From Anaerotruncus sp. G3(2012) (GTDB taxonomy: Bacteria > Bacillota > Clostridia > Oscillospirales > Ruminococcaceae), in contig NZ_KE159657.1 of NCBI RefSeq assembly GCF_000403395.2, positions 32,185-96,184 on the forward strand: a stretch of DNA of 64,000 nt, written 5' to 3'. The notes beneath the pieces were generated by a model. That model worked only from the letters and a program-made list of their open reading frames with translations. It was not told where the DNA came from and ran no database searches. Position numbers and translations under genes: made by a program. Of the stretch, positions 9,574-54,846 are shown in pieces (position 1 is the stretch's first letter; every line of letters begins with the position of its first letter).

Positions 9574-9595
9574 CCAGAAAGGCGGTGGAGGCGGG

Positions 9596-10321: not shown

Positions 10322-10366
10322 CCCGCCTGGTGAACATACTTGAAACAGAGAAAGAAGGAGAGTGAC

Positions 10367-11161
10367 ATGAGAAAGATTGCAGCACTCCTGCTGGCCTGCC
10401 TGCTGTTTGGCGGATGCGAAGAGCGCCATGCGGCGCCGGTGCAGGCGGAGTCCTCGGAGGATGCCGCCCCGGTAAGCTCTCAATGGTGGGAGGAGGTCCC
10501 GGAGGAGCTATCTTCGGATCCGGAGCCGGAAGAGTCCTCCCCGGCATCGGAAGAGCCGCCCTCAGAGCCGGAAGAGCCGCCGCTCGAGCTGGAAGAGTGG
10601 GCGCTGGTCCTTGCCAACTATGACCACGACATCCGGGAGTACGAGCCCGAGTTGGAAGAGGTCCAGAACGGCTACCGGATGGATGTGCGCGTTGCCGAGA
10701 TCGCCCGGCAGATGATCGCGGACGCGGCGGAACAGGGGGTAAGCCTTCTGGTGTGTTCAGCCTACCGGCCGTATTCCTCGCAGGAGCGCAACTTTAACAA
10801 CAGTGTCAACACCTATCTTTCGATGGGCTACAGCCGGGATCAGGCGGTCGCGGCTACCGCGCAGCTGATCGCCTATCCCGGCAGGAGCGAGCATCAGACC
10901 GGGCTTGCAGCAGACATCGTAACTCCGGCCTACCAGGGGCTGGACGATGGGTATGCCGAGACCGACGCGGCAAAATGGCTGCTTGAAAACGCGGCGGACT
11001 ACGGGTTTATCCTGCGCTACCCGGCGGATAAAACCGAGATCACCCGGATCAACTTTGAGCCGTGGCATTACCGGTATGTGGGAATTGACGCGGCAAAGGA
11101 GATTATGGAAAACGGGCTCTGCCTTGAGGAGTTTCTTGAGCAGCAGGGAATGATCGAATGA
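10367..11161 (+). CDS. VanY-type D-Ala-D-Ala carboxypeptidase lipoprotein
   Basis: The 264-residue envelope protein has a lipoprotein signal (LLLACLLFGGC, lipid-linked Cys about residue 18), then a Glu/Pro/Ser-rich tether to about residue 75, then an M15B (LAS) peptidase domain. Zinc ligands are visible in SEHQTGLAADIV (His and Asp) and EPWHYRYVG (His), with the SAYRPYSSQ segment typical of VanY/DdcY. Likely role: trimming of peptidoglycan stem peptides on the outer face of the membrane. The ATG follows AAGAAGGAGAG. It lies 45 nt after rsmE and overlaps the next gene by 4 nt. Confidence 0.88.
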   Translation: MRKIAALLLACLLFGGCEERHAAPVQAESSEDAAPVSSQWWEEVPEELSSDPEPEESSPASEEPPSEPEEPPLELEEWALVLANYDHDIREYEPELEEVQNGYRMDVRVAEIARQMIADAAEQGVSLLVCSAYRPYSSQERNFNNSVNTYLSMGYSRDQAVAATAQLIAYPGRSEHQTGLAADIVTPAYQGLDDGYAETDAAKWLLENAADYGFILRYPADKTEITRINFEPWHYRYVGIDAAKEIMENGLCLEEFLEQQGMIE

Positions 11162-11736
11162 GCCGCCGGCAAAAAGCTGCGCGGGCCGCGTACCGCCTGC
11201 TGGAGGTGCGCGGACGGCGTGCGGCAACGGCTGCCGCATTCCTCCTGCTTGTGGTGGTGCTGGCCGCGGGTTGCCTGATCGCATGGCAGGTCCAGCAGAT
11301 GAAGGATCAGATCCTGAAAACCCAGCTTGTGCAGTCGCTCACAGGCGGGGCTGACCTGGGCAGGTTCTCCCAGTTATCCGATCAGGGCAGGCTGACCCAG
11401 CTCCTTTCCGACCCCCAAACCGCTGCCCTGCTGGTCAGCTATTTCGACTCGATGGCAGATTCCCTCCAAAACCTCGACCCGTCCGGACGGGGGGCTTTCG
11501 CCCGGTTTTGCGCCCTTCTGGACGCGGCGGAGGGTTCCGGCGCTGCGTTGACCGGGTTTCGATGGGAAGAAAATGCCCTGATGGCCGACTGTGTTTCCGA
11601 CCGGGAGGACGCCTCCAGGGAGATGATGGAAATTCTGGGGCGGGACAATCTGTTTTCAGATGCAGAACTTTCCTCCCTGATAGGAGAAAAACAGGGGATT
11701 TTCACAATCTGTTGCAAATTTTCCGATCTCGTTTAG
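11158..11736 (+). CDS. Hypothetical membrane-anchored protein
   Basis: The 192-residue product has a basic N-terminus (RRQKAARAAYRLLEVRGRR), one transmembrane helix at about residues 22-45 and a soluble, probably extracytoplasmic domain with no motif recognised. Its ATG overlaps the stop of the VanY-type gene (ATGA), so translation is coupled and a role in the same cell-wall process is plausible. No known family was identified. Confidence 0.6.
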   Translation: MSRRQKAARAAYRLLEVRGRRAATAAAFLLLVVVLAAGCLIAWQVQQMKDQILKTQLVQSLTGGADLGRFSQLSDQGRLTQLLSDPQTAALLVSYFDSMADSLQNLDPSGRGAFARFCALLDAAEGSGAALTGFRWEENALMADCVSDREDASREMMEILGRDNLFSDAELSSLIGEKQGIFTICCKFSDLV

Positions 11737-11840
11737 ATGGAATCCACAAATTTTTTGAATTCTATACATAAATATCGCTCCATCTCTGTAAATTTCGGAT
11801 GGTTTGTGGTAGAATGATTTTAAACTGGGAGATCGTAAAA

Positions 11841-13130
11841 TTGGCAAAAGAGAAACAGATGGTATGGCAGATCCCTCTTACCCGGAAACAGGCTGGGGTC
11901 TTTTTGGCGGCATTGCTCCTTTCCGCTGCGCTCGTGCGGCTGATCCTCGGCTATACGGCGGTTCACTATTTCGATTTGGGATACTATGTTGACTGGTCGT
12001 CCGGTGTGCTGGAGGATTTTTTCGGCGCATATGACCGGATCGAAAATCTGGATTATCCGCCGTTGTTTCTCTTCCCGCTCTATTTTACCGGGTGGGTGAT
12101 GTCCGACCCGCGGGTCTCGGAGTTTCACCCCTACGCGATGCTTGCTCTCAAGGGCTGGCAGATGCTCTTCGATCTGGCGCTCATCCCCATGCTGTATCTT
12201 CTTCTGCGCAGGCATAGCGAGCTTTTTGGACTGCTTGGAGCGGCGCTCTGGGCGGTCAACCCGACCATCCTCTACAACTCCGCCTACTGGGGCCAGACCG
12301 ACAGCATTATGCTCTTCCTGCTCGCGCTCGCATTCAGCCTGCTCGACAATGGCAGGCCGGTCTGGAGCAGCGTGACAATGGCGCTCGCCTGCCTGATGAA
12401 GTTCCAGTCGCTCTATTTTGCGCCGCTTTTTGCGTTGGTGCTCTTTACGCGGTATCCGTTCCGGAGGGCGGCCCTGGGCGGCTGTGCAGCCGTGGCAACC
12501 GCATTTGCGGTGTTTCTGCCTTTCATGCTCCGCTCAGGCTGGGATCTTCCGTTTCGCGTTTACTTTGGCGGATTTGCACAGTATCCAGGGGCGTCGCTCA
12601 ACGCATTCAACCTTTACAGTGCGGAAGGGCTGAACTATGCCAGCGTTGCAACCACTCTGGTTGGGCCGCTTACTGTCGGCGGATTTTCCGCCTGTGCCAC
12701 AGCCGCCGCGCTGCTTCTGTTGGCTTACTTCTACCTGACCGCGACCGAAAAAAGCGTCTGGCTGCTGGGGTTCTGGTTTATGCAGACGGTATTCCTGTTC
12801 ACCGCCCGGATGCATGAGCGGTATCAGATACCGGTGCTGTTGTTCGCACTTCTGGCGAGCGTTGTACACAGGAGTTATCCGCTTTTCTGGGGATACGCCG
12901 CGTTGACGGCAATCACCTTTTTTAACCATTTCCTTGTGCTGGAAGAGGCGTTTGCAGGCGACCCGCCAAAGGCCTGGACGCTCTGGTTCGGCGATCTCGT
13001 CGAACAGTTTTCGTGGGCGAACCTTGCTGTCTATGCACTGACAGCTGCGGTCTGCCTGCATATCCTGTATCGCAGGGGGCGGATCAGCCTGCGTGAGGGG
13101 ATTCAGCAGGCGGGTTCTTACAAATTTTGA
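11841..13130 (+). CDS. Multi-pass membrane glycosyltransferase-like protein
   Basis: The 429-residue integral membrane protein has about ten predicted spans. It resembles polyprenyl-phosphate-dependent GT-C mannosyl/glucosyltransferases: an early acidic loop (DWSSGVLEDFFGAYDRIENL, then DYPPLF) and NPTILYNSAYWGQTDS, the pattern of GT-C enzymes that put the catalytic acid in the first outer loop. Substrate unknown. A TTG start at 11841 is preferred because GGGAG lies 9 nt upstream and a TAGAAT -10-like box lies upstream; in-frame ATGs at 11799 and 11814 lack a Shine-Dalgarno site. The next gene starts inside its stop. Confidence 0.7.
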   Translation: MAKEKQMVWQIPLTRKQAGVFLAALLLSAALVRLILGYTAVHYFDLGYYVDWSSGVLEDFFGAYDRIENLDYPPLFLFPLYFTGWVMSDPRVSEFHPYAMLALKGWQMLFDLALIPMLYLLLRRHSELFGLLGAALWAVNPTILYNSAYWGQTDSIMLFLLALAFSLLDNGRPVWSSVTMALACLMKFQSLYFAPLFALVLFTRYPFRRAALGGCAAVATAFAVFLPFMLRSGWDLPFRVYFGGFAQYPGASLNAFNLYSAEGLNYASVATTLVGPLTVGGFSACATAAALLLLAYFYLTATEKSVWLLGFWFMQTVFLFTARMHERYQIPVLLFALLASVVHRSYPLFWGYAALTAITFFNHFLVLEEAFAGDPPKAWTLWFGDLVEQFSWANLAVYALTAAVCLHILYRRGRISLREGIQQAGSYKF

Positions 13131-43127: not shown

Positions 43128-43203
43128 GGGAGCATAGCTCAGCTGGGAGAGCATCTGCCTTACAAGCAGAGGGTCACAGGTTCGAGCCCTGTTGTTCCCA
43201 CCA
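43128..43203 (+). tRNA. tRNA-Val (anticodon TAC)
   Basis: Acceptor GGGAGCA/TGTTCCC, anticodon loop CTTACAA, T-loop TTCGAGC, encoded CCA. It is first in a cluster of five. Confidence 0.95.
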
Positions 43204-43209
43204 TAAAAT

Positions 43210-43286
43210 GGCCCGGTAGTTCAGTTGGTTAGAACGCTAGCCTGTCACGCTAGAGGTCGTGGGTTCGAGCCCCATCCGGGTCGCCA
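43210..43286 (+). tRNA. tRNA-Asp (anticodon GTC)
   Basis: Acceptor GGCCCGG/CCGGGTC, anticodon loop CTGTCAC, T-loop TTCGAGC, encoded CCA. Confidence 0.95.
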
Positions 43287-43292
43287 GAGTGT

Positions 43293-43368
<76 letters not shown>

Positions 43369-43371
43369 CAC

Positions 43372-43447
43372 GCGGGTTTAGCTCATTTGGTAGAGCGCCA
43401 CCTTGCCAAGGTGGAGGTAGCGAGTTCGAGCCTCGTAACCCGCTCCA
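43372..43447 (+). tRNA. tRNA-Gly (anticodon GCC)
   Basis: Acceptor GCGGGTT/AACCCGC, anticodon loop TTGCCAA, T-loop TTCGAGC, encoded CCA. Confidence 0.95.
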
Positions 43448-43505
43448 AAAAAAGGGGATCTTTTGTGTCACACAAAGTCCCTTTTTCCATATACTAAGTA
43501 TATGG
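43448..43505 (+). terminator. Hairpins between tRNA-Gly and tRNA-Cys
   Basis: A terminator-like stem (AAAGGGGA...CTTTTGTG with CACAAAG...CCCTTT, T5 tail) is followed by CCATATACT/AGTATATGG. tRNA-Cys may therefore be transcribed by readthrough or from its own start. Confidence 0.6.
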
Positions 43506-43509
43506 AGAC

Positions 43510-43584
43510 GGCGCCATAGCCAAGCGGTAAGGCAGGAGTCTGCAAAACTCTCATTCCCCGGTCCGATTCCGGGTGGCGCCTCCA
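43510..43584 (+). tRNA. tRNA-Cys (anticodon GCA)
   Basis: Acceptor GGCGCCA/TGGCGCC, anticodon loop CTGCAAA, T-loop TCCGATT, encoded CCA. Confidence 0.95.
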
Positions 43585-43775: not shown

Positions 43776-44903
43776 TCACCCCTGTTCGACCCGTTCAAAG
43801 ACATCCGCGATGGCGCCATATGCGCTTGCATATTTTCCAAGGGTGGCCAGGCTGATTTCGGCGTGCATCGGGGAAAGACTAAAAGCAGTGTCGCGAATCT
43901 CCTGGATAACTCCGGACATCGCCTCAATAACCGGTCCCCCCAGGATCACCCGTTCGGGATTGAGCAATCCGATGAAATTTGCCAGAACAACCGAGAGCTC
44001 CAGAACAAATTGAGAAACGGTCTCACGCGCCAGGATATCCCCTGCGCAATAGGCGTCAAAGAGCGCCTGACAGCTCCCGAATGTTTTTGACAGGGTGTGT
44101 GCGGAAACCTTCTGTTCAAAAACACCGGTTTCCCCCAGCACATTAAACCGTTTTTGGCGGATGTCATCGGTTCCGATCTGATAGCAGATTTCCCCCGACA
44201 GTGAGTGGCTTCCATCAACGACCTTGCCGTTGCAGATGACCGCCCCTCCGACGCCGTTCCCGATCGAGAGAAACAGCATATCGTCGGTTCCTTTGCCCGC
44301 GCCCAGCCAGCGTTCTCCCAGAGCTGCGCAGTTGGCGTCGTTGCCCAAAAAGACCGGGTATGGGAACTGGGATTGCAGAACCGAACCGGCATTGTAGTGG
44401 TGCCAGTTCAGGGTTCCGGAATGGAGCACGATGCCTTCGCGGGTGACGGTACCTGGCACGCTGATGCCAAGACCCGAGATCGTCTGGTCGGCAAGGCCGC
44501 TCTCCGAAATCCCGTGTTGGATGCGCTCGATCAGCGCGGAAAGCTGGTTCGTAGAGGGGAAGGTGGTCTTAAACACACAGCTTCCAAGCAGATTGGTTAT
44601 GACCAGCAGGGTTTCGCTCCGGGCGATCGAAACCCCGATTCCATAGGCGGAGTCAGGGTTGAAGCCGAGCATCCAGGCGGGCCTCCCAGCCCCCTTTCCT
44701 GCTGTGCATTCTCCCAGATCAATAATCATGGACTTTTTCAGAAGGTCCTCTACGATCAGCGAAACGGTGGTTTTGCTCAGAGAAAGCTCCCGCGCGATTT
44801 GGGCGCGGGAAACCGGCTGACATTCCTTAATCATGTCAAGCACAAGCGACCGGTTGATTTTTTTGATGAGTTCTGCTCTGGCAGCTCTCTTATTTCCGGA
44901 CAT
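43776..44903 (-). CDS. ROK-family transcriptional regulator lacking the zinc motif
   Basis: The 375-residue NagC/XylR-type regulator has an N-terminal winged helix (VSRAQIARELSLSKTTVSLIVEDLL, here read as VSRAQIARELS and SKTTVSLIVEDLL, about 30-65) and a ROK sugar-kinase fold with GLGISVPGTV, FLGNDANCAALGE and FLSIGNGVGGAV. The usual CxCGxxGCxE zinc motif after GEICYQIG is absent. Likely role: sugar-responsive repression of a divergent operon. The only divergent feature left is a promoter and a permease fragment, so its original target may be lost. Confidence 0.85.
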   Translation of the reverse strand: MSGNKRAARAELIKKINRSLVLDMIKECQPVSRAQIARELSLSKTTVSLIVEDLLKKSMIIDLGECTAGKGAGRPAWMLGFNPDSAYGIGVSIARSETLLVITNLLGSCVFKTTFPSTNQLSALIERIQHGISESGLADQTISGLGISVPGTVTREGIVLHSGTLNWHHYNAGSVLQSQFPYPVFLGNDANCAALGERWLGAGKGTDDMLFLSIGNGVGGAVICNGKVVDGSHSLSGEICYQIGTDDIRQKRFNVLGETGVFEQKVSAHTLSKTFGSCQALFDAYCAGDILARETVSQFVLELSVVLANFIGLLNPERVILGGPVIEAMSGVIQEIRDTAFSLSPMHAEISLATLGKYASAYGAIADVFERVEQG

Positions 44904-45113
44904 GACATTCTCTCCAATAAAAGTTGTCCACTTAATAATACGGATTACAGACTAAATCTGTAATAACAGAAAATCTCATAATTGTATTATATTATAAATA
45001 GAAATTTAGAGAATGTCAATAGAATAGAAGGTTGTTTTGTTGGATTTTACCGTTAAAAATTAAGGTCATGTAAACAAAACCGGTTTTTTATCCAGAACTG
45101 TGCACAATGGTTC

Positions 45114-45141
45114 TTGACAAAAGATATCCCTGTGTTATAAT
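45114..45141 (+). promoter_or_regulatory. Strong promoter divergent from the ROK regulator
   Basis: A consensus TTGACA (45114-45119), 16-nt spacer and TATAAT (45136-45141). It faces a degraded gene. The AT-rich 44904-45113 may hold the ROK operator. Confidence 0.7.
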
Positions 45142-45208
45142 GGTTGCAAATAAATAATCCATATCATTTACTAATTAAGGCGGAAAGAGAGAGGGGAAGA
45201 TATACTGT

Positions 45209-45421
45209 GTGCAGGCGGATGGCTGGTCTTCTTGCTTTCCTGGAATTAAGGTGATCGTCTTTTTTATGTCCTATCTGGCGCCGGGCAGCCCACTGGACTA
45301 TCTGCTTGCCGATCCCACGATCTCTGTGGAAGAACTGATATGTACGCTTTCGCGCGGGTCCAAAGCGTGCGAAACCAGGGAACGCAACTTCTCATCAAGC
45401 ATACGAAGCAACAGGTTATAA
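45209..45421 (+). pseudogene. Fragment of a peptide/sugar ABC transporter permease
   Basis: The frame gives VIVFFMSYLAPGSPLDYLLA followed by DPTISVEEL, which resembles the N-terminal loop of DppB-type permeases (normally ...FFL-x-LAPGDP...). The upstream membrane helix and everything downstream are missing and the frame then turns non-coding. From here to 45650 no intact gene is visible. Inference: the remnant of the operon once controlled by the ROK regulator. Confidence 0.45.
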
Positions 45422-45657
45422 GCATCCCAAAGGGTTTGCCATCTGTGAAGAACAGGCGGCAGGCCCTTTTCTTTTTTCCAGCCTGCTGTAACAGAATGGA
45501 AACGGCAGGAGCCAATGCGGTGGAAGGCTTATCATGCGTCCTGGTTCGCATTCCGAAGCCAATGGGCCTGCTCACAGGCATTTGCCTGCTGTTTGGAAAC
45601 AGGATTGTTTTCAAGTGAGTTGACGATATATCAAGTGGTATTTTGGGGAATCCATGC

Positions 45658-45684
45658 ACAAAAAAATCAAATGCTCATAAACTG
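45658..45684 (+). promoter_or_regulatory. SigK-like promoter motif of the interrupted gene
   Basis: AC (45658-45659), 16-nt spacer, CATAAACT (45676-45683), with transcription expected about 30 nt before the ATG at 45724. It fits AC-N16/17-CATAnnnT; the last base of the fuller CATAnnnTA consensus differs. Confidence 0.4.
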
Positions 45685-45723
45685 GTAGTGAGTATAGCTC
45701 AAAACAGAACTAGGAGGATTCAT

Positions 45724-45824
45724 ATGGCAGAGCAAAGAACAGCTCCGGTCACCGCGACAGGGGCGAACTGTTTTAAGGAAGCGGTATGCATTGACGCCGG
45801 TCGGATCTACGACTCTTGTACTGA
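45724..45824 (+). pseudogene. Interrupted conserved gene, segment 1 (N-terminus)
   Basis: Strong start: TAGGAGGATTCAT then ATG. It encodes MAEQRTAPVTATGANCFKEA and VCIDAGRIYDSCT, then meets a TGA at 45826 just inside element 1. From memory, clostridial genomes encode a conserved protein of about 250 residues whose N-terminus reads ...CFKEAVCIDAGRVYDSC.DKDCLEDLQVFF. The continuation DKDCLTDLQVFF is found at 47356. Joining at the TGA core shared by the two ends restores ...DSCTDKDC... in frame. Whether the gene is dead or rebuilt by excision is the key question. Confidence 0.75.
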
Positions 45825-46043
45825 ATGACATGATCCAAGATAACCGACAGACGATACCCAGTCCGGCTGGCTGCGGTATCGGTCCGGTTAGGCGGTTTTG
45901 CGTTTCAACGCCGCAGCATGAGACCGGGATGCCCCCAGTTTATGTCCTGTCCAGCGCACAAGCCCACATGGTTTCCCACGAGTGAGTTGGCCCCGCCGAC
46001 AGGAGCTTTGTTTTTGGCGGTCGGCGCGGCGTCCCGCATCCAG

Positions 46044-46116
46044 CCTGTTTGAAGCGAGAAAAGTGGGCGTCCCTTTCTGGCGGAAAAAGGAGCCATTTCG
46101 ATTTTTCAAACCCGGG
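46044..46116. repeat. Small foldback related to the R2 element ends
   Basis: CCTGTTTGAAGCGAG at the left and ATTTCGATTTTTCAAACCC at the right are inverted. The right end matches the R2 terminus at 61547-61560. The surrounding 45829-46159 has no gene. Confidence 0.4.
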
Positions 46117-46159
46117 TCAGCCAGAATCCCGGACAGAGCGCCGCCATTGCAGGCAGGTT

Positions 46160-46510
46160 CTAGCCGAAGCACTCCGGAAATTTTCTGAGCGCTTCATAAT
46201 AGGAGATTCCGAAATGCGCGTAGACCGCGAGGTAGAGGATGATGTCCTTTGGGGTATGGATTTCCTCCAACGGGTCCCCAATAACCACTTCCTTCATCTT
46301 TTTTTCCTTCAGCTCCCAGCAGCGGCGGGCGGCTCTCTCAATATTTCTGGTGATATTGGCCTGAGAATCACCCAACTGTCTGGCCACTTCAGGATAAATC
46401 TGCTTGGTCACCCGTATGTCATAAACCGAGAGCTTCTCCTCCAACAGCAGCTTTTCCATGACCGTAACCGCGCAGCTCAACGCCTTGAATTCTTTTCCTC
46501 TCTGTCCCAA
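46160..46510 (-). CDS. Spo0A C-terminal-domain protein, possibly 5'-truncated
   Basis: The 116-residue product is homologous to its divergent neighbour at 46920 and to the Spo0A DNA-binding domain: KEFKALSCAVTVMEKLLLEE, VTKQIYPEVARQLG, then NITRNIERAARRCW correspond to the Spo0A recognition helices. No receiver domain is present. The frame continues upstream without a stop to about 46549 with residues matching the paralogue's N-terminus (TEARIYEVL), but only an ATT is available there and an R3 repeat follows directly, so the original start was probably lost; the TTG at 46510 is the fallback. Confidence 0.6.
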   Translation of the reverse strand: MGQRGKEFKALSCAVTVMEKLLLEEKLSVYDIRVTKQIYPEVARQLGDSQANITRNIERAARRCWELKEKKMKEVVIGDPLEEIHTPKDIILYLAVYAHFGISYYEALRKFPECFG

Positions 46511-46563
46511 TACTTCATAAATACGTGCTTCTGTCTGTGTCGTGGCAATCCAACCCTTTCCTG

Positions 46564-46638
46564 CAACTGGTATTCATAACCGGGTCATTTCGGGTAGGCG
46601 AAAGAACTGTCCAGCTGGTTGTGAATACGGCTTCTTAG
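46564..46638. repeat. R3 foldback repeat, copy 3 (degenerate)
   Basis: GGTATTCATAACCGG at the left and GGTTGTGAATACGGCTTCTT at the right are inverted and match copies at 8347 and 42834. It sits at the 5' edge of the minus-strand Spo0A-domain gene. Confidence 0.5.
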
Positions 46639-46692
46639 AGTTTTCTTTTTATAATAGAGTAAAAACGGCAGTGACAGACGAAAAACGATGTT

Positions 46693-46725
46693 ATACGACA
46701 TAATACGACAAATCTATTGTCGCAT
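46693..46725. promoter_or_regulatory. Cluster of Spo0A-box-like sites
   Basis: ATACGACA occurs at 46693-46700 and 46703-46710 (TGTCGTAT on the minus strand), and TTGTCGCAT at 46717-46725. They resemble the Spo0A box core TGTCGAA, with changes at the last positions, and lie between two divergent genes for Spo0A DNA-binding-domain proteins. Confidence 0.45.
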
Positions 46726-46809
46726 TCTTAAATAGGAGAAGTGGTTTTATCAGGATTTTCGCAGGGGATAGAGGTGGTGCAAATATATACAGGAATTGAC
46801 TGAAAAATG

Positions 46810-46858
46810 AAAAGATATCTTTTTAAGTCGAATTTTAAGTCTAAAAAAGATATATTTT
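46810..46858 (+). other. Inverted repeat upstream of the Spo0A-domain gene
   Basis: AAAAGATATCTTTTTAAG (46810-46827) and CTAAAAAAGATATATTTT (46841-46858) can pair. It may be an attenuator stem or operator in the leader. Confidence 0.4.
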
Positions 46859-46919
46859 GTCCATCCGCTCTTTTTTACTTTATGCTGTTTCTAAATGACG
46901 ATAAAAGGGGGTGAGCATT

Positions 46920-47303
46920 GTGACAACAGTTGAATCTCAGATTTATGAGTTTTTGAGAAAGGGTGGAAAAGAGTTTAAAGCCCTGTCCTGTGCGATTATG
47001 GTTATGGAAAGGCTGTTGTTTGAAGAAAAGAAGTCGATCTATGATATTCAGGTGACAAAGGATATCTATCCCGAGGTTGTAAAGCTAATGGGGGGCGGGC
47101 CGGCAAGCGTCACCAGGAATATCGCCCGGGCAGCGAGGAAGTGCTGGAAATCGCAGGAGGCACAGATACGGGAGAAAGTCATCGGAGAGCCCTGTGAGGA
47201 TATGCACGCCCCAAGAGACCTGATCCTCTATCTTGCGGTTTACGCGCATTTTGGGATTCCCTATTATGAAGCGATCCGCAAATTTCCGGGGGATTTTGGC
47301 TGA
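46920..47303 (+). CDS. Spo0A C-terminal-domain protein
   Basis: The 127-residue product is a stand-alone homologue of the Spo0A DNA-binding domain: KEFKALSCAIMVMERLLFEE, VTKDIYPEVVKLMG, SVTRNIARAARKCW and a C-terminal extension (LILYLAVYAHFGIPYYEAI). Spo0A is the master regulator of sporulation; proteins without the receiver domain could bind 0A boxes constitutively or compete with it. The GTG at 46920 lies 5-6 nt after AGGGGGTGA; a GTG at 46911 overlaps that site. It lies 50 bp from the right end of element 1. Confidence 0.8.
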   Translation: MTTVESQIYEFLRKGGKEFKALSCAIMVMERLLFEEKKSIYDIQVTKDIYPEVVKLMGGGPASVTRNIARAARKCWKSQEAQIREKVIGEPCEDMHAPRDLILYLAVYAHFGIPYYEAIRKFPGDFG

Positions 47304-47355
47304 CGGGACACCGCTTCCTACAATACGATCTCCGGGGTCCTGCATATTGTTATGA

Positions 47356-47721
47356 TAAGGATTGTTTAACCGACTTGCAGGTGTTCTTTACAGACCGGGC
47401 GCAGCCGGTAATTGATAATGCGCTGAGCGTCAAATGTAAAGATGTCGAGATTATCACCGTCTATCTGGATGTCGAGCCGGTTCCATTCAATAAGGGGTTT
47501 TATTCGGTCGATATTACCTTCTTCTTTAAGGTAACCCTCAGCGCATACAGCTCTCCGGTGGTGCCTCCGGCGACAGTGGTTGGGGTAGCGGCATTCTCCA
47601 AAAAGGTGATCCTGTTTGGAAGCGACGGCAATGTCAAGGTTTACTGTTCGACGGACCCCCGTAATTGCAGTGAACACGACAATACCAACATGCCCAAGGC
47701 AAGTGTACACACAGTGGACCC
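47356..47721 (+). pseudogene. Interrupted conserved gene, segment 2 (middle)
   Basis: Starts mid-codon at the element 1 right core and encodes DKDCLTDLQVFFTDRAQPVI, then long beta-strand-like stretches (TVYLDVEPVPFNKGFYSVDI, TFFFKVTLSAYSS), ending NMPKASVHTVDP at the element 2 left core (GACCC, 47717-47721). It has no start codon of its own. Beyond the core the frame runs on as KQGGTEKG, which is not conserved-looking. The segment joins in frame to segment 3. Confidence 0.75.
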
Positions 47722-47742
47722 AAAACAGGGGGGAACAGAAAA

Positions 47743-47770
47743 GGGGAGGCTGCCAGTTTGCAGTCTCCCC
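47743..47770 (-). terminator. Terminator of the DUF134-NifX gene
   Basis: GGGGAGGCTGC pairs with GCAGTCTCCCC; the minus strand continues TTTTCTGTT. Confidence 0.75.
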
Positions 47771-47914
47771 CCGGCATGTGCCCGGACGATTTATCATCAG
47801 AATGCTTCTCAAGAAAGAATCTGGACATCCTATTGAAGTCCTTGGATATTGTCTGCGACAGACCGCCAGAAACGGTTCTGTTTCACCCTCCACAGTTAAT
47901 CAATGCCGGCCCTG

Positions 47915-48685
47915 TCAGCCGCAGCTATGCCCACCGCAGCCATGTTCCCCGCATGAATGCCCATCCTCATGATGGCTGTGTTCATGGTGGCTGCACTGGA
48001 TGCCCGGGTTGTAAGAAAGATTACCCGCCAGAAATGCCTTTACAGCGTCATCCGCAGGGCAGGAAACCCCGCCGTAGAGCTGAATCCCAGCCTGCGCCAG
48101 GGCGGTTTTGGCCCCGGCGCCAATCCCCCCGCAAAGCAGCACATCCACCTTTGCGGCTTTCAGAAAACCGGCCAGTGCCCCATGGCCGCTCCCACTGGTA
48201 TCGGCAAGCTGCTCTTTGACTACCAGCCCGTTTTCAACGTCATAAAATTTAAACTGTTCGGTATGTCCAAAGTGCTGGAACACCTGGCCATCCTCGTATG
48301 GAACTGCAATTCTCATCATCAACACTCCTTTTTCCGCAATCGTTTGCCTGATTTGGCTCCATTGACAATGCCGTACACAACCGTGTCCCCGTTCCCCCTG
48401 GCAGATGCGGTAATGCCCGCCCGCAATGACCAGTGCCTTTCCGTTGACCAGGACGTCGGAGAGCTTAAACCGCGCGGATTCGTAGATCTCTGTTACGGTG
48501 GTGCGGGAGATTTCCATCTGTGCGGCACACTGTTCATGCGTCCTTTTTTCGTAGTCAACCAGCCGGACCACTTCGTATTCGTCCACGGTGAGAACGGTGA
48601 TGCCTGTATGCGTTTCGCCATTGGGGATAAAGCCACAGTAGGCCGGTTCCATGCAAACCCTCCGGCATCGGCTCGGTCTGGCCAT
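47915..48685 (-). CDS. DUF134 regulator fused to a NifX/dinitrogenase-cofactor domain
   Basis: The 256-residue fusion has an N-terminal DUF134 part (ARPSRCRRVCMEP, VLTVDEYEVVRLVDYE, then a helix-turn-helix ISRTTVTEIYESARFKLSD, to about residue 105) and, from about 123 (MRIAVPYEDGQVFQHFGHTE), a NifX/NifB-type domain. The tail is a His/Cys metal-binding stretch (CSHHEHSHHEDGHSC and more). It is probably a metal or redox-responsive DNA-binding protein. A perfect 28-bp palindrome lies 21 bp upstream, suggesting autoregulation. An internal ATG at 122-123 could allow separate NifX synthesis. Confidence 0.88.
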   Translation of the reverse strand: MARPSRCRRVCMEPAYCGFIPNGETHTGITVLTVDEYEVVRLVDYEKRTHEQCAAQMEISRTTVTEIYESARFKLSDVLVNGKALVIAGGHYRICQGERGHGCVRHCQWSQIRQTIAEKGVLMMRIAVPYEDGQVFQHFGHTEQFKFYDVENGLVVKEQLADTSGSGHGALAGFLKAAKVDVLLCGGIGAGAKTALAQAGIQLYGGVSCPADDAVKAFLAGNLSYNPGIQCSHHEHSHHEDGHSCGEHGCGGHSCG

Positions 48686-48706
48686 GCGGTCACCTCCATT
48701 TCAGAA

Positions 48707-48734
48707 GCTATTATCGACATATGTCGATAATAGC
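48707..48734. promoter_or_regulatory. 28-bp perfect palindromic operator
   Basis: The sequence is GCTATTATCGACAT followed by its exact reverse complement, just upstream of the DUF134-NifX start. It is probably the binding site of that protein. Confidence 0.7.
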
Positions 48735-48783
48735 ATACTGCATATAGCGGAAAAAAGCAAGCCCTTTGAGACGCTCGTGGAAA

Positions 48784-48819
48784 ATGAAAAAACGGTGTGA
48801 CCCTGAGATCACACCGTTT
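48784..48819 (-). terminator. Terminator of the flagellin gene
   Basis: AAACGGTGTGA pairs with TCACACCGTTT; the minus strand continues TTTCATTTT. Confidence 0.85.
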
Positions 48820-48875
48820 CCGATCAAAAATACATGGGAACCCACCTGGGAATGAACCGGATTTTAGAACCCGGT

Positions 48876-49691
48876 CTACCGCATCAGCATCGAAACCGCA
48901 TTGTAGGCCATCATCTGTTGGGCATTCTTCATCATTGCGATCGAGGTCGCATTGAGCGCCATGCTGATGCTGCGGTTGGTCGACTCTTTTGCAATATCCG
49001 CGTCCATGATCCGGGAAAGCCCGGCCTGAAGGTTTTCATTGGTGTTGTCAAGCGCGTTGATCGTGCTGGCAAGGCTGTTTTCGGTTGCGCCGAGGTTTGC
49101 ACGCTGGGAGGAAACCCGGTCGGTCGCGCTGCTGATCCGGTCCAGTGCGCTCTGAGCGCCGCTGAGGGAGGAAAGGTCAACCTTATCCAGCCCAAGCGAA
49201 GCGGCGGAAAGCTTACCGGCCTCGACCGTAATCTGCTCGCCCGCGGTCGCGCCTACCTGCATCTGCTGGGAACTTCCGTCAAACGGCTTCAGACCGTTGA
49301 AATCGGTCGACTGGCCGATCCGGTCGATCTCGCTCGAAAGCTGTTTGTACTCCGCCTGGATCATATTGCGCTCGGTCGAACTGAGAAGGCCGTTGCTCGC
49401 GCGGGTCGCCAGCTCGGTCATCCGGTTGGTGATCGAATGCACCTGGTCCATCGCGCCCTCCGCAGTCTGAATATAGGAAATCGCATCCTGTGCATTCATG
49501 CTGGCGGTCGAAAGGCCGGTGATCTGCGCGTTGATCCGTTTCCCGATCGCAAGCCCCGAAGCATCGTCGCCCGCGCTGTTGATCCGGTATCCGGACGCAA
49601 TCCGGCGGATCTGCATCGCCTGCATCTTCTGCGCGCCCGAGAGCATCCGCCGCATCGACTGTTGTAAACCGACATTGCCATTTACTTTCAT
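48876..49691 (-). CDS. Flagellin
   Basis: The 271-residue short flagellin has the conserved N-terminal D0/D1 (RIASGYRINSAGDDASGLAI, ISYIQTAEGAMDQVHSI) and C-terminal D1/D0 (LGATENSLASTINAL, ESTNRSISMALNATSIAMM), with almost no variable D2/D3 between. It would be exported by the flagellar type III system and polymerise into a filament. The ATG at 49691 follows CAGGGGGTTG. No other flagellar structural gene is in the window; the FliS-like gene is divergent from it. Confidence 0.95.
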   Translation of the reverse strand: MKVNGNVGLQQSMRRMLSGAQKMQAMQIRRIASGYRINSAGDDASGLAIGKRINAQITGLSTASMNAQDAISYIQTAEGAMDQVHSITNRMTELATRASNGLLSSTERNMIQAEYKQLSSEIDRIGQSTDFNGLKPFDGSSQQMQVGATAGEQITVEAGKLSAASLGLDKVDLSSLSGAQSALDRISSATDRVSSQRANLGATENSLASTINALDNTNENLQAGLSRIMDADIAKESTNRSISMALNATSIAMMKNAQQMMAYNAVSMLMR

Positions 49692-49739
49692 AAAACACAA
49701 CCCCCTGTCATATGGAGTGAAAGATTCTTATCCATTTCC

Positions 49740-49768
49740 AGTATACTAAAATGATCCTGAAAATGCAA
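49740..49768 (-). promoter_or_regulatory. Promoter of the flagellin gene
   Basis: Minus strand: TTGCAT (49768-49763), 17-nt spacer, TATACT (49745-49740). It is SigA-like; no SigD-type GCCGATAA box is seen. Confidence 0.55.
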
Positions 49769-49786
49769 GTAGCTGCGGAAAGATTC

Positions 49787-49815
49787 TTGGAAAATTTACC
49801 GGTCTGTGTTAGAAT
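49787..49815 (+). promoter_or_regulatory. Promoter of the FliS-like/recombinase unit
   Basis: TTGGAA (49787-49792), 17-nt spacer, TAGAAT (49810-49815), divergent from the flagellin promoter. Confidence 0.6.
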
Positions 49816-49871
49816 ATTTTTGAATCGCAGGCTGTTTCCGGGGAGCAACCGGGAAAAGGGAGGTGCGGACG

Positions 49872-50225
49872 ATGCAGAATCCGAAGGAAATCCGGAAAAA
49901 ACAGTATTTTTCGATGGACCCCAAACATCTGGTTGGCGGGCTGGTGGAAAAGTGCGTTACCCATGCGTCGGGGGCAAGGCTGGCGATCGAGCGGAAGGAG
50001 TTTGCGCAGGCGAATGAGCATCTGAAAAATGCACAGGATATCCTGATACAGCTCCAGTCGCTCATCCCCAAGGACGGGGACGAGACTTCTCAACAGGGAA
50101 GGCAGGTGCTGGGGCTGTTGATCCGGGAGCTTTTTTTCTGCAACATCAATAAGGATGCCGGGCGGCTGGATGAGGCCATAAACATTTTGAACCGGCTTGC
50201 GAGCGTCACCCGGTGCGACCAGTGA
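49872..50225 (+). CDS. FliS-like flagellin chaperone
   Basis: The 117-residue helical protein resembles FliS, the cytosolic chaperone that caps flagellin before export: ARLAIERKEFAQANEHLKNA then QDILIQLQSL corresponds to the FliS helix 2-3 region, and LFFCNINKDAGRLDEAINIL to its ...ANIKND..L.EV... helix. It differs from classic FliS in an N-terminal KEIRKKQYFSMDP. The ATG at 49872 follows GGGAGG. Its position opposite flagellin supports the call. Confidence 0.65.
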   Translation: MQNPKEIRKKQYFSMDPKHLVGGLVEKCVTHASGARLAIERKEFAQANEHLKNAQDILIQLQSLIPKDGDETSQQGRQVLGLLIRELFFCNINKDAGRLDEAINILNRLASVTRCDQ

Positions 50226-50271
50226 AAGATGGACAGCCCGCCCCGCATAGACTTGGGCGGGAGGTGTTTGG

Positions 50272-50445
50272 ATGGCACAGAAGAGAAAGCCGCAGTTTTT
50301 CTGGATCGACCCCAACCCGCCGGGGGCGGTCGAACAGAGGCTGGAACAGTTGTTTGTGGGCAGGCTGCTGGACGGGTACGCGGAATTGACGAACCGCGGG
50401 GAAGATGGTAAAATAAAATGCGATAAGGCTGGTGAACCGGGATGA
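50272..50445 (+). CDS. 57-residue ORF coupled to the recombinase; candidate directionality factor
   Basis: Good start (GGGCGGGAGGTG before the ATG). The product MAQKRKPQFFWIDPNPPGAV continues with a short helix (EQRLEQLFVGRLLDGYAEL) and a charged tail. Its stop overlaps the recombinase ATG (ATGA), so the two are translationally coupled. Small proteins next to large serine recombinases can be recombination directionality factors, for example SprB of SPbeta; assigning that role here is inference. Its N-terminus echoes the K-R/K-K-x-Q-Y/F-F-x2-DP of the FliS-like protein. Confidence 0.5.
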   Translation: MAQKRKPQFFWIDPNPPGAVEQRLEQLFVGRLLDGYAELTNRGEDGKIKCDKAGEPG

Positions 50446-51896
50446 GGCTCGCGGCCTACTGCCGGGTGAGCACCGACCGGGAGGCGCAGCTCGAATCGCT
50501 CGAAAACCAGAAGGCATTTTTCGCGGAATTTGCCGGGAAGTATGGGCATGAGCTGGTGCGGGTCTACGCCGACGAAGGGCTTTCGGGCAGGCAGATGTCC
50601 AACCGTAAGGCGTTTTTGCAGATGCTCTCGGATGCGGAGACAGGGCTGTTCGAGATGGTCGCGGTCAAGGATATCAGCCGGTTTGCCCGCAATACGGTCG
50701 ATTTCCTCTGCGCTACCCGGCGTCTGCGCGCATTGCGGATCGAGGTGCAGTTCCTCTCCAACAGCCAGACCATCCTCGGCGGTTCGGAATTTGTACTCAC
50801 CCTGTTCAGCGCGCTGGCACAGGAGGAGAGCGCCAACCTCTCCAAACGGGTGCGGTTCGGCAAACGGGTCAACGCGCGCCGGGGCAGGGTGCCCAACCTG
50901 ATCTACGGCTACGACCAGCTGGACACCTTTACCCTCGCGGTCAACCCGCAGGAGGCGGAGGTTGTCCGGCGGGTGTTCTCCCTCTACCAGAACGAGGGAA
51001 TGGGTGCGCACCGGATCGCGCTCCTGCTCAACGGGGAGGGGGTCCCCGGGAAGAAGGGCGGGCGGTGGACCTCCAAGACGGTCCGCCGGATGCTCCGCAA
51101 CCCGATCTACTGCGGGATACTGGTCAACAACAAATATGAGACGGTCGATTTTCTGACCGGTCGGCAGGTCCGCCTGCCTGCTGACCAGCAGTTTGTCCAC
51201 GAGCGGCCCGCTTATGCGATCGTCCCGAAAGCCCTGTTTGAGCAGGTGCAGCGCACCGCTGACGCGCGCGCCGGCCAATATGCGGCCAACGAGAGGCACA
51301 GCAGCAGGCATCTGTTCAGCGGGCTGATCCGATGCGGGAGCTGCGGGCATCTGTTCACCCGCAGGCAGTATACCTACCGCAATACCTTTCTGAAATGGGG
51401 TTGTTCGGGGCATAATCAGTATACGGCAGATTTCTGCCCCAACGCCGTTTCAATCGACGAACAGATGCTGCTGGAGGAATTGGAGCGGTTCCTTGACCGG
51501 GCAGTCCCTGACCGGGAAGCGTTTTTGGAGAGGGTTGCCCGGATATGCAGGCGCTCGGACAGAGCGTCGGACAGGTCCGATGCGGGGCGCAGGCTGGCGC
51601 AGCTCAACCGCCGGGCGGAGCGGTATCGGGCCATGTGTGCCGATGGGCTGATCGGATTCGAGGAGCTTGCACGTCAGGTCGCCTGTCTGGACGCGGAACG
51701 GGAGCGGCTCTGCGGCAGGCTGCGGGAGGATTGCCCGGAGGCCGACTGGACGTCCCGCGTACGGGAGCGGTTTGCTCTCCCCGGCTGGACCAATGCCGAC
51801 CTGCGGGAACTGATCGACCGGATCACCGTCTTTCCGGACGGACGGGTGGAAATCGCAGTGAAACCCCTGTTTGGGGGCAGCGACACATGTGGTTGA
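50442..51896 (+). CDS. Large serine recombinase
   Basis: The 484-residue site-specific recombinase has an N-terminal catalytic resolvase domain starting RLAAYCRVSTDREAQLESLE (nucleophile Ser10) with the RFARNTVDFL region, a recombinase domain (about 150-260, PNLIYGYDQLD, MLRNPIYCGILVNN), a zinc ribbon (CGSCGH...CSGHNQYTADFC) and a C-terminal coiled coil (about 365-430). This is the architecture of phage integrases and SpoIVCA-type excision recombinases. Its stop TGA forms part of the right junction core GTTGACCC. Confidence 0.93.
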   Translation: MRLAAYCRVSTDREAQLESLENQKAFFAEFAGKYGHELVRVYADEGLSGRQMSNRKAFLQMLSDAETGLFEMVAVKDISRFARNTVDFLCATRRLRALRIEVQFLSNSQTILGGSEFVLTLFSALAQEESANLSKRVRFGKRVNARRGRVPNLIYGYDQLDTFTLAVNPQEAEVVRRVFSLYQNEGMGAHRIALLLNGEGVPGKKGGRWTSKTVRRMLRNPIYCGILVNNKYETVDFLTGRQVRLPADQQFVHERPAYAIVPKALFEQVQRTADARAGQYAANERHSSRHLFSGLIRCGSCGHLFTRRQYTYRNTFLKWGCSGHNQYTADFCPNAVSIDEQMLLEELERFLDRAVPDREAFLERVARICRRSDRASDRSDAGRRLAQLNRRAERYRAMCADGLIGFEELARQVACLDAERERLCGRLREDCPEADWTSRVRERFALPGWTNADLRELIDRITVFPDGRVEIAVKPLFGGSDTCG

Positions 51897-52230
51897 CCCG
51901 ATGTGTCTCGACAGCAAGCTGGTTGAATGCGGGCCGCAGCGGATGTTCGACAGTGGCGTGACCCTGCCCGCCTCGGTCTGCGCCAAGTTTGACGGCGATT
52001 TCGCCGCCTGTAAACCCCAGAAGGTGGTCCTGATTACGATCGGCCTGTTCACCATTGTCCAGCTCGAACGGAGTGTGCAGATGATGATTCCTGCATACGA
52101 CTACGCGGTCCCGGACAAAGAGGGCAGCACCAACACCGGCTCGGACGATCCATGCGAGGTGTTCAAGAAGATCAAATTCCCGGTGAACCAGTTTTTCCCG
52201 CCCAAATTCAACGAAATCGGGCAGGCTTAA
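51895..52230 (+). pseudogene. Interrupted conserved gene, segment 3 (C-terminus)
   Basis: From the right core the frame reads DPMCLDSKLVECG, VCAKFDGDFAACKPQKVVLI, TIGLFTIVQLERSVQMMIPA, YDYAVPDKEG and ends KFPVNQFFPPKFNEIGQA. No ribosome site or start belongs to it. With segments 1 and 2 it makes exactly 798 nt, a 265-residue frame with no stops. From memory, the clostridial homologues end in a similar ...VQMLIPAYDFCVPDKE...DDPCDLFRKIKFPTDEFFPP pattern. Confidence 0.75.
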
Positions 52231-52257
52231 CCGACCGGGTGCGGCAGCGTGCGGATA

Positions 52258-52280
52258 GGGAGCAGGCAGAACCTGCTCCC
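52258..52280 (+). terminator. Hairpin after the interrupted gene
   Basis: GGGAGCAGG pairs with CCTGCTCCC; there is no T run. Confidence 0.4.
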
Positions 52281-52323
52281 ACGCGCCGGGCCTGCGAAAC
52301 CATACAGGAGGAAGTTATAAACC

Positions 52324-53103
52324 ATGCCACAAGTTACCCTGCTTACCCATACCCCCGCCCCCGAGCGGACGATTGCGGCTGCGGCCAGGCTCTGTTATTC
52401 CCCCGCGTCCATCGCCGACCTGCTGGACAACCTCTCGGATGAAAAAGCATCCGGTTTTGTCGGGATGCTCGCCGAGATCGGGCACGAAAGCCCGATCGAA
52501 CATGCCAGCTTCACCTTCGGGATCGAGGGGGTCTCCCGCTCGCTGCTCGCGCAGATCACCCGGCACCGGATCGCATCTTACAGCGTCCAGAGCCAGCGGT
52601 ATGTGCGGGAAGACGCGTTTGCGTTTGTCACCCCGCCCCAGATCGCGCAGAACCCGGAAGCGCAGGCACTGTTTGACGAGGCTATGCGTTCGGCACAGGA
52701 CTATTACGACCGGATTGCCGCCCTGCTGAAAGCGGACCATACCGCCCGGCTCGCCGCCGCTGGGGTGCCCGAACAGGATGCGGTGCGTCAGGCGGAAAAG
52801 CTGGCGATCGAGGATGCGCGGTTTGTGCTTCCGAATGCGTGCGACACCAAGCTGGTGGTCACGATGAACGCGAGGAGCCTGCTCAACTTTTTCTCCCATC
52901 GGTGCTGCAACCGGGCACAGTGGGAGATCCGCGAGGTGGCCGACCGGATGCTCGCGCTGGTGAGCGAGGTCGCGCCGACCCTTTTTGCCAAGGCTGGCCC
53001 TCCCTGTGTGCGGGGCGGATGCACCGAAGGGAAGATGTCCTGCGGCAGGCCGGAAGAGGTCCGCGCCCGGATCGCCCGGCTCAAAGAGGAGGCGCAGGGA
53101 TGA
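52324..53103 (+). CDS. thyX: Flavin-dependent thymidylate synthase ThyX
   Basis: Makes dTMP from dUMP using methylene-THF and FADH2/NADPH. The 259-residue product has the diagnostic RHRxxSxxxxSxR motif as RHRIASYSVQSQRY (about 79-92) and the C-terminal FFSHRCCNRAQWEIRE. Its ATG follows AGGAGGAAG. It overlaps tmk by 4 nt, giving a dTMP-to-dTDP pair. Confidence 0.95.
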   Translation: MPQVTLLTHTPAPERTIAAAARLCYSPASIADLLDNLSDEKASGFVGMLAEIGHESPIEHASFTFGIEGVSRSLLAQITRHRIASYSVQSQRYVREDAFAFVTPPQIAQNPEAQALFDEAMRSAQDYYDRIAALLKADHTARLAAAGVPEQDAVRQAEKLAIEDARFVLPNACDTKLVVTMNARSLLNFFSHRCCNRAQWEIREVADRMLALVSEVAPTLFAKAGPPCVRGGCTEGKMSCGRPEEVRARIARLKEEAQG

Positions 53104-53771
53104 ACGGGACCCTGATTGTGATCGACGGCCTGGATGGCTCGGGCAAGCAGACCCAGGCCCGGCTTTTGCGGGAGCGACTGGAACGGGAGCGGGTGCCGGT
53201 GCGGGCGATCAGCTTCCCGGATTACGGGCAGCCCTCCTCCGCACTGGTCCGGCTCTATCTGGACGGGAGGTTCGGGCAGGCGGACGAGGTTTCCGCCTAT
53301 GCCGCCAGCAGCTTCTATGCGGTGGACCGGTTCGCAAGTTACATGCAGTTCTGGAAGGATGACTATCTTTCGGGGCATACTATCCTTGCCGACCGCTACA
53401 CCACCTCCAATTTGATCCATCAGATGTCCAAGCTCCCGCGTGAGGAGTGGGGGCGGTTTATCGCGTGGCTGGAAGCCTACGAGTATGATGAGATGAAGCT
53501 CCCACGGCCGGACCTGGTGCTTTATCTGGACATGTATCCGGACGTTTCACGCGAGCTGCTTTCGGTGCGCTACAGGAGGGATGAACGGAAAAAGGACATC
53601 CACGAGGCCAATTTCGCCTATCTCCAGCGGTGCAGGGGCTGTGCGCTCTATGCCGCGGAACGGTTTGGCTGGCGGGTGATCCCCTGTTCGGACGAGCGTC
53701 GGCCGTTTGGGATCGAGGAGATTGCAGAGCGGGTTTATGAGGCGGCAGCCGCCTGTATCCGTAGGCCATAG
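53100..53771 (+). CDS. tmk: Thymidylate kinase
   Basis: Phosphorylates dTMP to dTDP. The 223-residue product has the P-loop GLDGSGKQT (10-18), the DRYTTSNLIHQ region (DRX motif) and the LVLYLDMYPDVS nucleotide-binding strand followed by the lid RRDERKKD. Its ATG overlaps the thyX stop (ATGA), so the pair is translationally coupled. Confidence 0.94.
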   Translation: MNGTLIVIDGLDGSGKQTQARLLRERLERERVPVRAISFPDYGQPSSALVRLYLDGRFGQADEVSAYAASSFYAVDRFASYMQFWKDDYLSGHTILADRYTTSNLIHQMSKLPREEWGRFIAWLEAYEYDEMKLPRPDLVLYLDMYPDVSRELLSVRYRRDERKKDIHEANFAYLQRCRGCALYAAERFGWRVIPCSDERRPFGIEEIAERVYEAAAACIRRP

Positions 53772-53937
53772 ACCAAACTTACAGGCGCCCGCGCTTTCCT
53801 CAGAGCACGGAATGCTTATCCTGTGAAGCGCTTTTTCGGGTGAATTGCCGCGAGGTGGCAGGCGGAGGCTTCTTGCAAGAGAGAAAGCCCCTGCTCCCGG
53901 GAAAGATAAAAAGGTATAGAAAAGGGATGTACACCAT

Positions 53938-54846
53938 ATGCTGGAGTTTCAACCGATTACCCTCAGCGATCAGGAATGGATCGCGCCGCTGCTCGCGATG
54001 TCCAACCGGCGCGGGAGCGAATACACCTTTTCCAACAACTACGTCTACCGGACGATCTATCAGATCGAGGTCGCCCGGATGGAAAACTACTATCTGGTCC
54101 GCTCCCGCAAGGATGGGGAACCGCCTTTCTATCTCTTCCCGGCGGGCAGCGGCGACCTCGCCCCCGTGATCCGGGCGATGCAGCTTGACGCACAGGAACG
54201 CGGATTTCCCCTGCTCATCAGCGGTGCGGTGAAAGAGGATGTCGCGCAGCTCGAAACCCTCTTCCCGGGTGTGTTTTCGTTTGAGGAAGCGCGGGATAAT
54301 TTTGACTACCTTTATGAGAGCGAATCGCTCATCACGCTGGCGGGCAAAAAGCTGCATTCCAAACGAAATTTTATCAACCGGTTCAAGGCGGAGCAGGAAG
54401 GGAACTGGCGCTATGAGCCGATCGACGCGCGGAACATCGGGGACGCATGGAGGATGAACGTCGAGTGGTGCGCCGAAATGGGGTGCGGGGAGGACCCGAG
54501 CCTGCTGGAGGAGTCATGCGCGGTGCGCAACTGCTTTGAAACGTTCGATGCCCTCGGGCTGCGGGGCGGGCTCCTGCGGGTAGGGGACCGGGCCGTCGCC
54601 TTCTCGATGGGCAGGCCGCTTTCGTCGGACACGTTTATTGTGCATATCGAAAAGGCGTTCGCCTCGGTAGCGGGCGCCTACCCGATGATTAACCAGCAGT
54701 TTGCTGCGCATAACTGTGCGGAATACCGATATGTCAACCGGGAGGATGACGTGGGGGACGAGGGGCTTCGCAAGGCAAAACTCTCCTACCGCCCTGCCAT
54801 CCTGCTGGAGAAATATCTGGTGTCCGAAAAGGGTGCAAAACAATAG
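53938..54846 (+). CDS. DUF2156/phosphatidylglycerol-lysyltransferase-like protein
   Basis: The 302-residue soluble protein belongs to the DUF2156 family, which shares the tandem GNAT-like fold of the MprF C-terminal domain. Visible segments are FSNNYVYRTIYQIEVARMEN, then KKLHSKRNFINRFKAEQEGN and the C-terminal YRYVNREDDVGDEGLRKAKL, all typical. No membrane domain is present. Substrate unknown. It is cotranscribed with the following GNAT gene, 16 nt away. Confidence 0.85.
   Translation: MLEFQPITLSDQEWIAPLLAMSNRRGSEYTFSNNYVYRTIYQIEVARMENYYLVRSRKDGEPPFYLFPAGSGDLAPVIRAMQLDAQERGFPLLISGAVKEDVAQLETLFPGVFSFEEARDNFDYLYESESLITLAGKKLHSKRNFINRFKAEQEGNWRYEPIDARNIGDAWRMNVEWCAEMGCGEDPSLLEESCAVRNCFETFDALGLRGGLLRVGDRAVAFSMGRPLSSDTFIVHIEKAFASVAGAYPMINQQFAAHNCAEYRYVNREDDVGDEGLRKAKLSYRPAILLEKYLVSEKGAKQ

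Follow-up and report, generated by a model that had tools for sequence, protein, structure and literature searches.

Can a gene whose coding sequence lies in three separated pieces still yield its protein? The question is raised by a stretch of 64,000 nucleotides (nt) from Anaerotruncus sp. G3(2012) (contig NZ_KE159657.1; G000:C1:32185-96184 in a 3.6-Mb genome of 24 contigs), hereafter the window, in which a gene of a widespread family is interrupted by two elements. An earlier note, made from the sequence alone, had described three separated segments in order on one strand, and we found them so, all on the + strand. Segment 1 (45724-45824) encodes the N-terminus (...RIYDSC) and ends with the core GA, segment 2 (47354-47709; DKDCLTDLQV...KASVH) ends with the core CA, and segment 3 (51886-52230), which starts at that core, encodes the C-terminus (VVDPMCLDSK...). 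Between them lie element 1 (45823-47353, + strand, 1531 nt), inserted at a position that we call site 1, and element 2 (47708-51885, + strand, 4178 nt), inserted at site 2; their cores are GA and CA, respectively. Joined at GA (45823/47354) and CA (47708/51886), the segments give the proposed frame of 798 nt with a stop only at its end. The second crossover had been placed at a GACCC core, giving HTVDP, and this part of the proposal is not supported. The length is equal with either core; GACCC was rejected on the end sequences of six other site-2 elements (G004, G083, G467, G554, G486 and G591), in which the shared end stretch always takes in the first two bases of the preceding His, Gln or Glu codon. 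The join at CA gives VHVVDP in the window, matching the intact relative.

The joined product of 265 amino acids (aa) was compared with the gene of G064, a genome of the same genus that is the nearest by a search with segment 2 and in which the gene is one open frame. The two are identical at 215/265 positions in a full-length alignment that spans both junctions, so that the protein comparison suggested in the earlier note did find a bridging homologue. Both interruptions are present at the same positions in another Anaerotruncus genome, G302, which was assembled separately; the split in the window is therefore no assembly fault. One explanation would be that the gene is dead, inactivated by phage-derived elements and with its pieces decaying. 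No single segment gives the whole protein, and loss of the gene is evidently tolerated, as no copy was detected in 171 of the 396 genomes of the family. Against this explanation, the ratio of non-synonymous to synonymous substitution rates (dN/dS) between the two doubly interrupted genes, in G000 and G302, is 0.014 (62 synonymous and 4 non-synonymous changes in 266 codons). It is 0.018 for the closest intact pair (L076 and A. colihominis DSM 17241) and 0.041-0.078 for three other intact pairs, a further six having saturated synonymous sites. The segments of both genomes are free of stops and frameshifts, both junctions still restore the frame, and the recombinase of element 2 (0.163) and a stand-alone recombinase described below (0.114) are also constrained. 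This is not the pattern of a gene decaying in pieces. The strong purifying selection on the segments, where the earlier note had named decay, together with a lack of excised molecules in sporulating cells, as a sign against its own proposal, largely refutes a dead gene, which we regard as very improbable.

From these comparisons we consider it highly probable that the split gene undergoes a developmental rearrangement of the skin/spsM type, with two cuts in one gene; our confidence covers excision and functional joining. The earlier note had proposed this layout, and the bridging homologue, the selection, integrases matched to their sites, the look of the promoter and the presence of both states in one relative all speak for it. 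It departs from the proposal in that element 1 has no recombinase and the second crossover lies elsewhere.

The same gene is split again and again in relatives. A profile built from 21 intact proteins (A1) detected it in 225 of 396 genomes of the family and in 203 of 247 genomes of the order, 189 of these outside the family. At least 15 of the 225 family genomes have an interrupted copy. Site 1, between DSC and SDKDC, is occupied in 12 of the 396 (G000, G302, G061, G275, G078, G161, G288, G032, G097, G104, G261 and G114), site 2, between V[HQ] and VVDP, in four (G000, G302, G004 and G083) and site 3, between PDK and EC, in two (G131 and G261), with two insertions in three genomes. Outside the family, at least 15 of the 189 genomes have a split gene. 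Eight are interrupted at site 1 and four at site 2, two have their break near position 77, which makes a fourth site, and the remaining one is G457. The split sites thus number four or more. Of 19 junction pairs read at site 1, 18 have GA on either side, always at one and the same codon position, and the pair of G114 has GC. The smallest of the elements is element 1 with 1.5 kb and the largest, in G114, has about 42 kb; some are prophages.

These split counts are lower bounds. Two or more matches were found in 44 of the 225 family genomes, of which 38 were re-examined, along with G037, G089, G218 and G228; G255 (two full copies), G357, G369, G381, G391 and G409 stayed outside the re-examination. 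In the order, 21 genomes were re-examined and the two-match genome G598 was left out. A genome with two matches within one open frame was not scored as split, nor were G027 (fragments, one with a stop) and G218, G228, G519, G540, G657 and G656 (single pieces). G037 looks cut at site 2, with pieces that overlap on two contigs, and was kept outside the count (84% complete). The pieces lie on separate contigs in G097, in G104 and at site 1 of G261. Two loci are more complex. In G457 (L223/L224, G457:C2:66543-97126) the gene is in three pieces, the middle one inverted, with two integrases of the site-1 type nearby; rebuilding it would take an inversion plus an excision. In G131 (G131:C11:1167228-1539097) a break at site 3 separates the N-terminal from the C-terminal piece by 371 kb on one contig, with an integrase adjoining the C-terminal piece. 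This is either one giant excised region or a rearrangement, between which synteny with G013 does not decide.

The enzymes found next to these elements correspond to the sites. In the 15 split family genomes, a large serine recombinase lies at most 2 kb from one junction of each element, the exception being element 1 in G000 and G302. Outside the family, 13 of the 15 genomes with a split gene yielded an integrase of these kinds, the search covering all but G530 and G563. In a tree of 35 sequences, all eight site-2 integrases form one clade (100/100), as do both site-3 integrases (100/100). The site-1 integrases fall into one clade (94/91), which also holds one G457 sequence labelled site 4; the other two site-4 sequences stand outside it, with two unrelated family members. 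The branching order of the site-2 and site-3 groups relative to each other was not used, because the tree program flagged long branches between them. Of 80 loci examined, one, a contig from IMG/VR (L254), carries an attachment-site (attR) fragment of this gene beside an integrase of the site-1 type; the other 79 showed none within the fetched flanks. The element ends match integrase attachment (att) cores common to same-site prophages, and this bears on another explanation, namely that the pieces are expressed separately and assembled as protein fragments, or that the gap is bridged at the RNA level. About 33 residues are all that segment 1 encodes, and no Rfam family reached the threshold in 44000-54000, on which ground a self-splicing intron was also rejected. 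We give this explanation almost no probability.

The G114 assembly contains both states. Its chromosome contig carries the intact gene, and contig C6 consists of a 42-kb prophage flanked at each end by 95 nt of that gene, the two flanks having exactly the 2-nt core GC in common (attL-prophage-attR). A PHROGs search of this prophage identified terminase, portal, tail sheath and tape measure genes; phage structural genes are present in the site-1 elements of G114, G078 and G161. A joined gene together with an integrated prophage is what an assembler yields when both states are present. G114 thus shows precise, gene-restoring excision of a site-1 element, with the timing outside the reach of this observation. 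G465, considered as a second assembly of this kind, was rejected because its extra piece is a diverged second copy.

Excision might also be stochastic or follow phage induction in growing cells, as a phase-variable or damage-induced switch and not as part of the spore programme. The G114 assembly holds both states without a known sporulation step, and the phages at site 1 in G114, G078 and G161 must also leave for lytic growth. The upstream region of the gene argues against such a switch. A predicted mother-cell promoter (45658-45683, + strand; AC, 16 nt, CATAAACT) lies 48 nt upstream of the ATG. We collected upstream regions from 41 of 80 loci, dropped three in which the start could not be placed, and added the window to the remaining 38. 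The motif CATANNNT is present in 36 of these 39 regions (shuffles: mean 5.3, maximum 13) and AC-N15-19-CATANNNT in 31 (shuffles: mean 0.9, maximum 5); by its consensus, we take the motif to be SigK/SigE-like. The gene therefore looks to be of the mother-cell type, predicted to act late in spore formation. The purifying selection described above likewise requires a regularly expressed joined product. A further argument for mother-cell use comes from the 9.6-kb site-1 element of G032, whose run of fatty-acyl-CoA metabolism genes (L064 (G032:C28), 4188-11915) would be lost by growing cells if excision were frequent. The run comprises genes for thiolase, enoyl-CoA hydratase, 3-hydroxyacyl-CoA dehydrogenase, acyl-CoA dehydrogenase, electron-transfer flavoprotein and CoA-transferase, a set that is presumably of the butyrate type. 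Taken together, we find a growing-cell switch quite unlikely. The G032 set also means that central metabolism genes are carried within a gene-intervening element.

With segment 2 as query, 80 of 148 family genomes gave a single match each, and homologues are usually one open frame, mostly of 260-300 aa from stop to stop. None of the three segments searched singly matches Pfam or NCBIfam, and a Pfam run on 21 members of the gene family gave no match. A sequence search of the PDB found no relative of the protein. Its AlphaFold model is beta-rich (mean predicted local distance difference test score, pLDDT, 79; predicted template modelling score, pTM, 0.68), and a PDB fold search with this model gave no match at E 0.001 or better. 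The gene was found in 219 of 369 genomes positive for the spore protein SpoIVA and in 6 of 27 negative ones (Fisher p = 0.0002, uncorrected for relatedness). It looks like a widespread, uncharacterised and conserved spore-type gene with predicted mother-cell expression.

Which enzyme would remove element 1? No recombinase open reading frame was found in 45823-47353. We searched the 396 family genomes with a profile (A2) built from ten site-1 integrases adjoining split genes. Twelve genomes scored at least 632 bits, the next match reaching 489 bits; as ten of the 12 had built the profile, their rank is by construction, and the informative ones are the other two. These only non-adjoining high scorers are in G000 (G000:C20:129923-131407) and G302 (G302:C101:39388-40860), the genomes whose site-1 element has no integrase. 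Among ten Anaerotruncus genomes the orphan recombinase is present in exactly those two with element 1, and the eight others, all with an intact gene, have no comparable match to A2 (at most 441 bits). Both orphans fall inside the site-1 integrase clade. They are single genes whose neighbourhood is common to the two genomes on one side (glycerol-kinase-, cation-efflux- and cytidylate-kinase-like genes, recognised by eye) and different on the other, with no other element genes seen beside them. The simplest reading, which we hold to be likely, is that the recombinase of element 1 has been handed to a stand-alone gene and that excision takes place in trans. Alternatively, element 1 may be excised by the recombinase of element 2 or by another serine recombinase, the orphan being unrelated. 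The genome has 32 recombinase-domain matches, any of which might act in trans. The site-1 and site-2 integrases belong to different clades, about 23-29% identical, and in both G000 and G302 the orphan is the one recombinase to exceed 150 bits against the site-1 profile. We consider this alternative unlikely. The 32 matches are to PF07508; four other Anaerotruncus genomes searched have 7 to 23. As it has no recombinase of its own, element 1 is classed as working like a gene-intervening element and not as a standard member of that kind.

Element 1 encodes two Spo0A_C-domain proteins, and element 2 a flagellin, both as annotated in the earlier note. Protein A (46160-46510, - strand; PF08769, E 2.6e-09; dN/dS 0.028 against G302) is a candidate control protein of the element; protein B (46911-47303, + strand; PF08769, E 1.5e-07; dN/dS 0.080) is about 63-65% identical to it. 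Upstream of gene A lies a tandem TGTCGTA motif (46694-46710, - strand), the sole match in the window at one mismatch or fewer, where 0.05 are expected. Judged by the consensus, we take it to be Spo0A-box-like. The motif is also the sole match in the G302 locus (L056), again upstream of gene A, an arrangement suggestive of regulation by Spo0A or by proteins of the element itself. A pairwise alignment of element 1 from G000 and G302, judged by eye, suggests conservation of both genes, of a short promoter block and of the att arm at each end. Spo0A_C domains are reported to be enriched on gut mobile elements, according to an excerpt of that report (PMC6907783), and their presence alone is therefore not new.

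Element 2 has its own large serine recombinase of the site-2 clade (50442-51896, + strand; dN/dS as above), located at its edge as the earlier note had seen and confirmed by the Resolvase, Recombinase and Zn_ribbon domains (PF00239, PF07508, PF13408). A 57-aa frame overlapping its start (50272-50445, + strand) is a candidate recombination directionality factor; a similar small frame with a D-x-N motif stands directly before the integrase in six of the eight site-2 elements read, and was not seen in G083 and G591. The cargo comprises a protein with DUF134 and dinitrogenase-cofactor domains (47915-48685, - strand; dN/dS 0.094), the flagellin (48876-49700, - strand; 0.096) and a FliS-like protein (49863-50225, + strand; 0.124). 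By these ratios, the cargo is under constraint too, as are the two Spo0A_C proteins. The flagellin and FliS-like genes (48876-50225) are odd cargo, and DNA resembling the flagellin region is present at other places in the genome. Pfam found no phage structural domains among the six open reading frames of elements 1 and 2 (two Spo0A_C, DUF134, flagellin, FliS and recombinase), PHROGs having been run on the relatives' elements only. Upstream of the locus, at 43128-43584, five tRNA genes (Val, Asp, Phe, Gly, Cys) are clustered.

We propose that two elements have entered a conserved gene of the mother-cell type, each at an attachment site within the coding sequence. Serine integrases in the mother cell would excise both by recombining attL with attR, leaving one frame of 265 codons, and the germline would retain the gene in its split form. 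For element 2 the enzyme would be the integrase that it encodes, probably with the 57-aa protein in the role of directionality factor. For element 1 it would be the stand-alone recombinase of G000, which belongs to the site-1 clade and would act in trans, perhaps under the control of the two Spo0A_C-domain proteins of the element. Several observations weigh against this proposal or parts of it. The assembly of the window organism contains the split state only, with no excised molecule or joined gene, and the mixture in G114 could reflect prophage induction and not sporulation. The gene was not detected in 171 of the 396 family genomes while SpoIVA is present in 369, and so it is not universally needed for sporulation. 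The CATANNNT motif is inconsistent before integrase genes, being found within 200 nt of 7 of 18 at very different distances. G000 and G302 have both elements in common; as these genomes are kin, the pairing of orphan and element 1 is probably one evolutionary event and not two. Finally, a relative of protein B is carried by only 5 of 247 family genomes, one of them that of the window. We therefore rejected the idea that site-1 elements generally carry Spo0A_C proteins, and the role of these proteins is a guess.

Known systems are compared here as excerpts of the cited reports describe them. In the established kind, an element within a spore gene is excised in the mother cell by its own serine recombinase with a small directionality factor (PMC4191935, PMC5025042, PMC10747680, PMC6907783, PMC5595907), and element 2 fits this kind as far as its sequence goes. 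The skin element in sigK of Bacillus subtilis and Clostridioides difficile (PMC4191935, PMC5025042) is alike in its insertion into a sporulation gene, its serine recombinase, the in-frame rebuilding and the split germline, mother-cell timing being a prediction in our case; it differs in the gene, whereas here two elements share one gene and the likely enzyme of element 1 is encoded elsewhere. SPbeta, a prophage in the SigK-dependent spore-envelope gene spsM of B. subtilis with the integrase SprA and the likely directionality factor SprB (PMC4191935), is resembled by the site-1 prophages of G114, G078 and G161, although here many different elements enter the same gene at four or more sites in several families. 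The gin element in gerE of B. cereus ATCC10987 (PMC5595907) is likewise a non-phage gene-intervening element with a serine recombinase in a mother-cell gene, but spans 28.6 kb with three recombinases inside, while element 1 spans 1.5 kb with none. The yin element in yabG of C. botulinum (PMC10747680) interrupts a conserved sporulation gene, and both its integrated and its excised form occur in one culture, much as the G114 assembly contains both; it is one case in one strain, whereas the splitting here is recurrent and involves two elements in one gene. Among the titles and abstract openings that searches of the open-licence literature listed, we found nothing on this gene, on two intervening elements in one spore gene, or on a recombinase encoded outside its element.

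The repeated hits on one gene at the same few spots very probably mean that cells rebuild it by DNA excision at sporulation. A broader model, to which we give even chances, has several lineages of serine integrases using an undescribed spore gene, found across the order, as a dedicated landing pad, with every lineage adapted to a site of its own in the coding sequence. In this Anaerotruncus lineage, element 1 would be a fully domesticated form, reduced to att arms and two Spo0A-like DNA-binding proteins, with its recombinase moved to an independent chromosomal gene and acting in trans, and two separately controlled cuts would form an AND gate on a late sporulation gene. The finding would add a new target to the short list of excision-rebuilt spore genes (sigK, spoVFB, spoVR, spsM, gerE and yabG in the excerpted reports), in gut Clostridia, where sporulation underlies transmission. 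It is also a warning for annotation, the gene being in pieces in at least 15 of the 225 family genomes that have it. The repeated invasion of one gene makes it possible to ask why phages pick mother-cell genes and how serine integrases gain specificity for coding sequences, as well as how an invading element turns into a host switch, up to the loss of its own recombinase.

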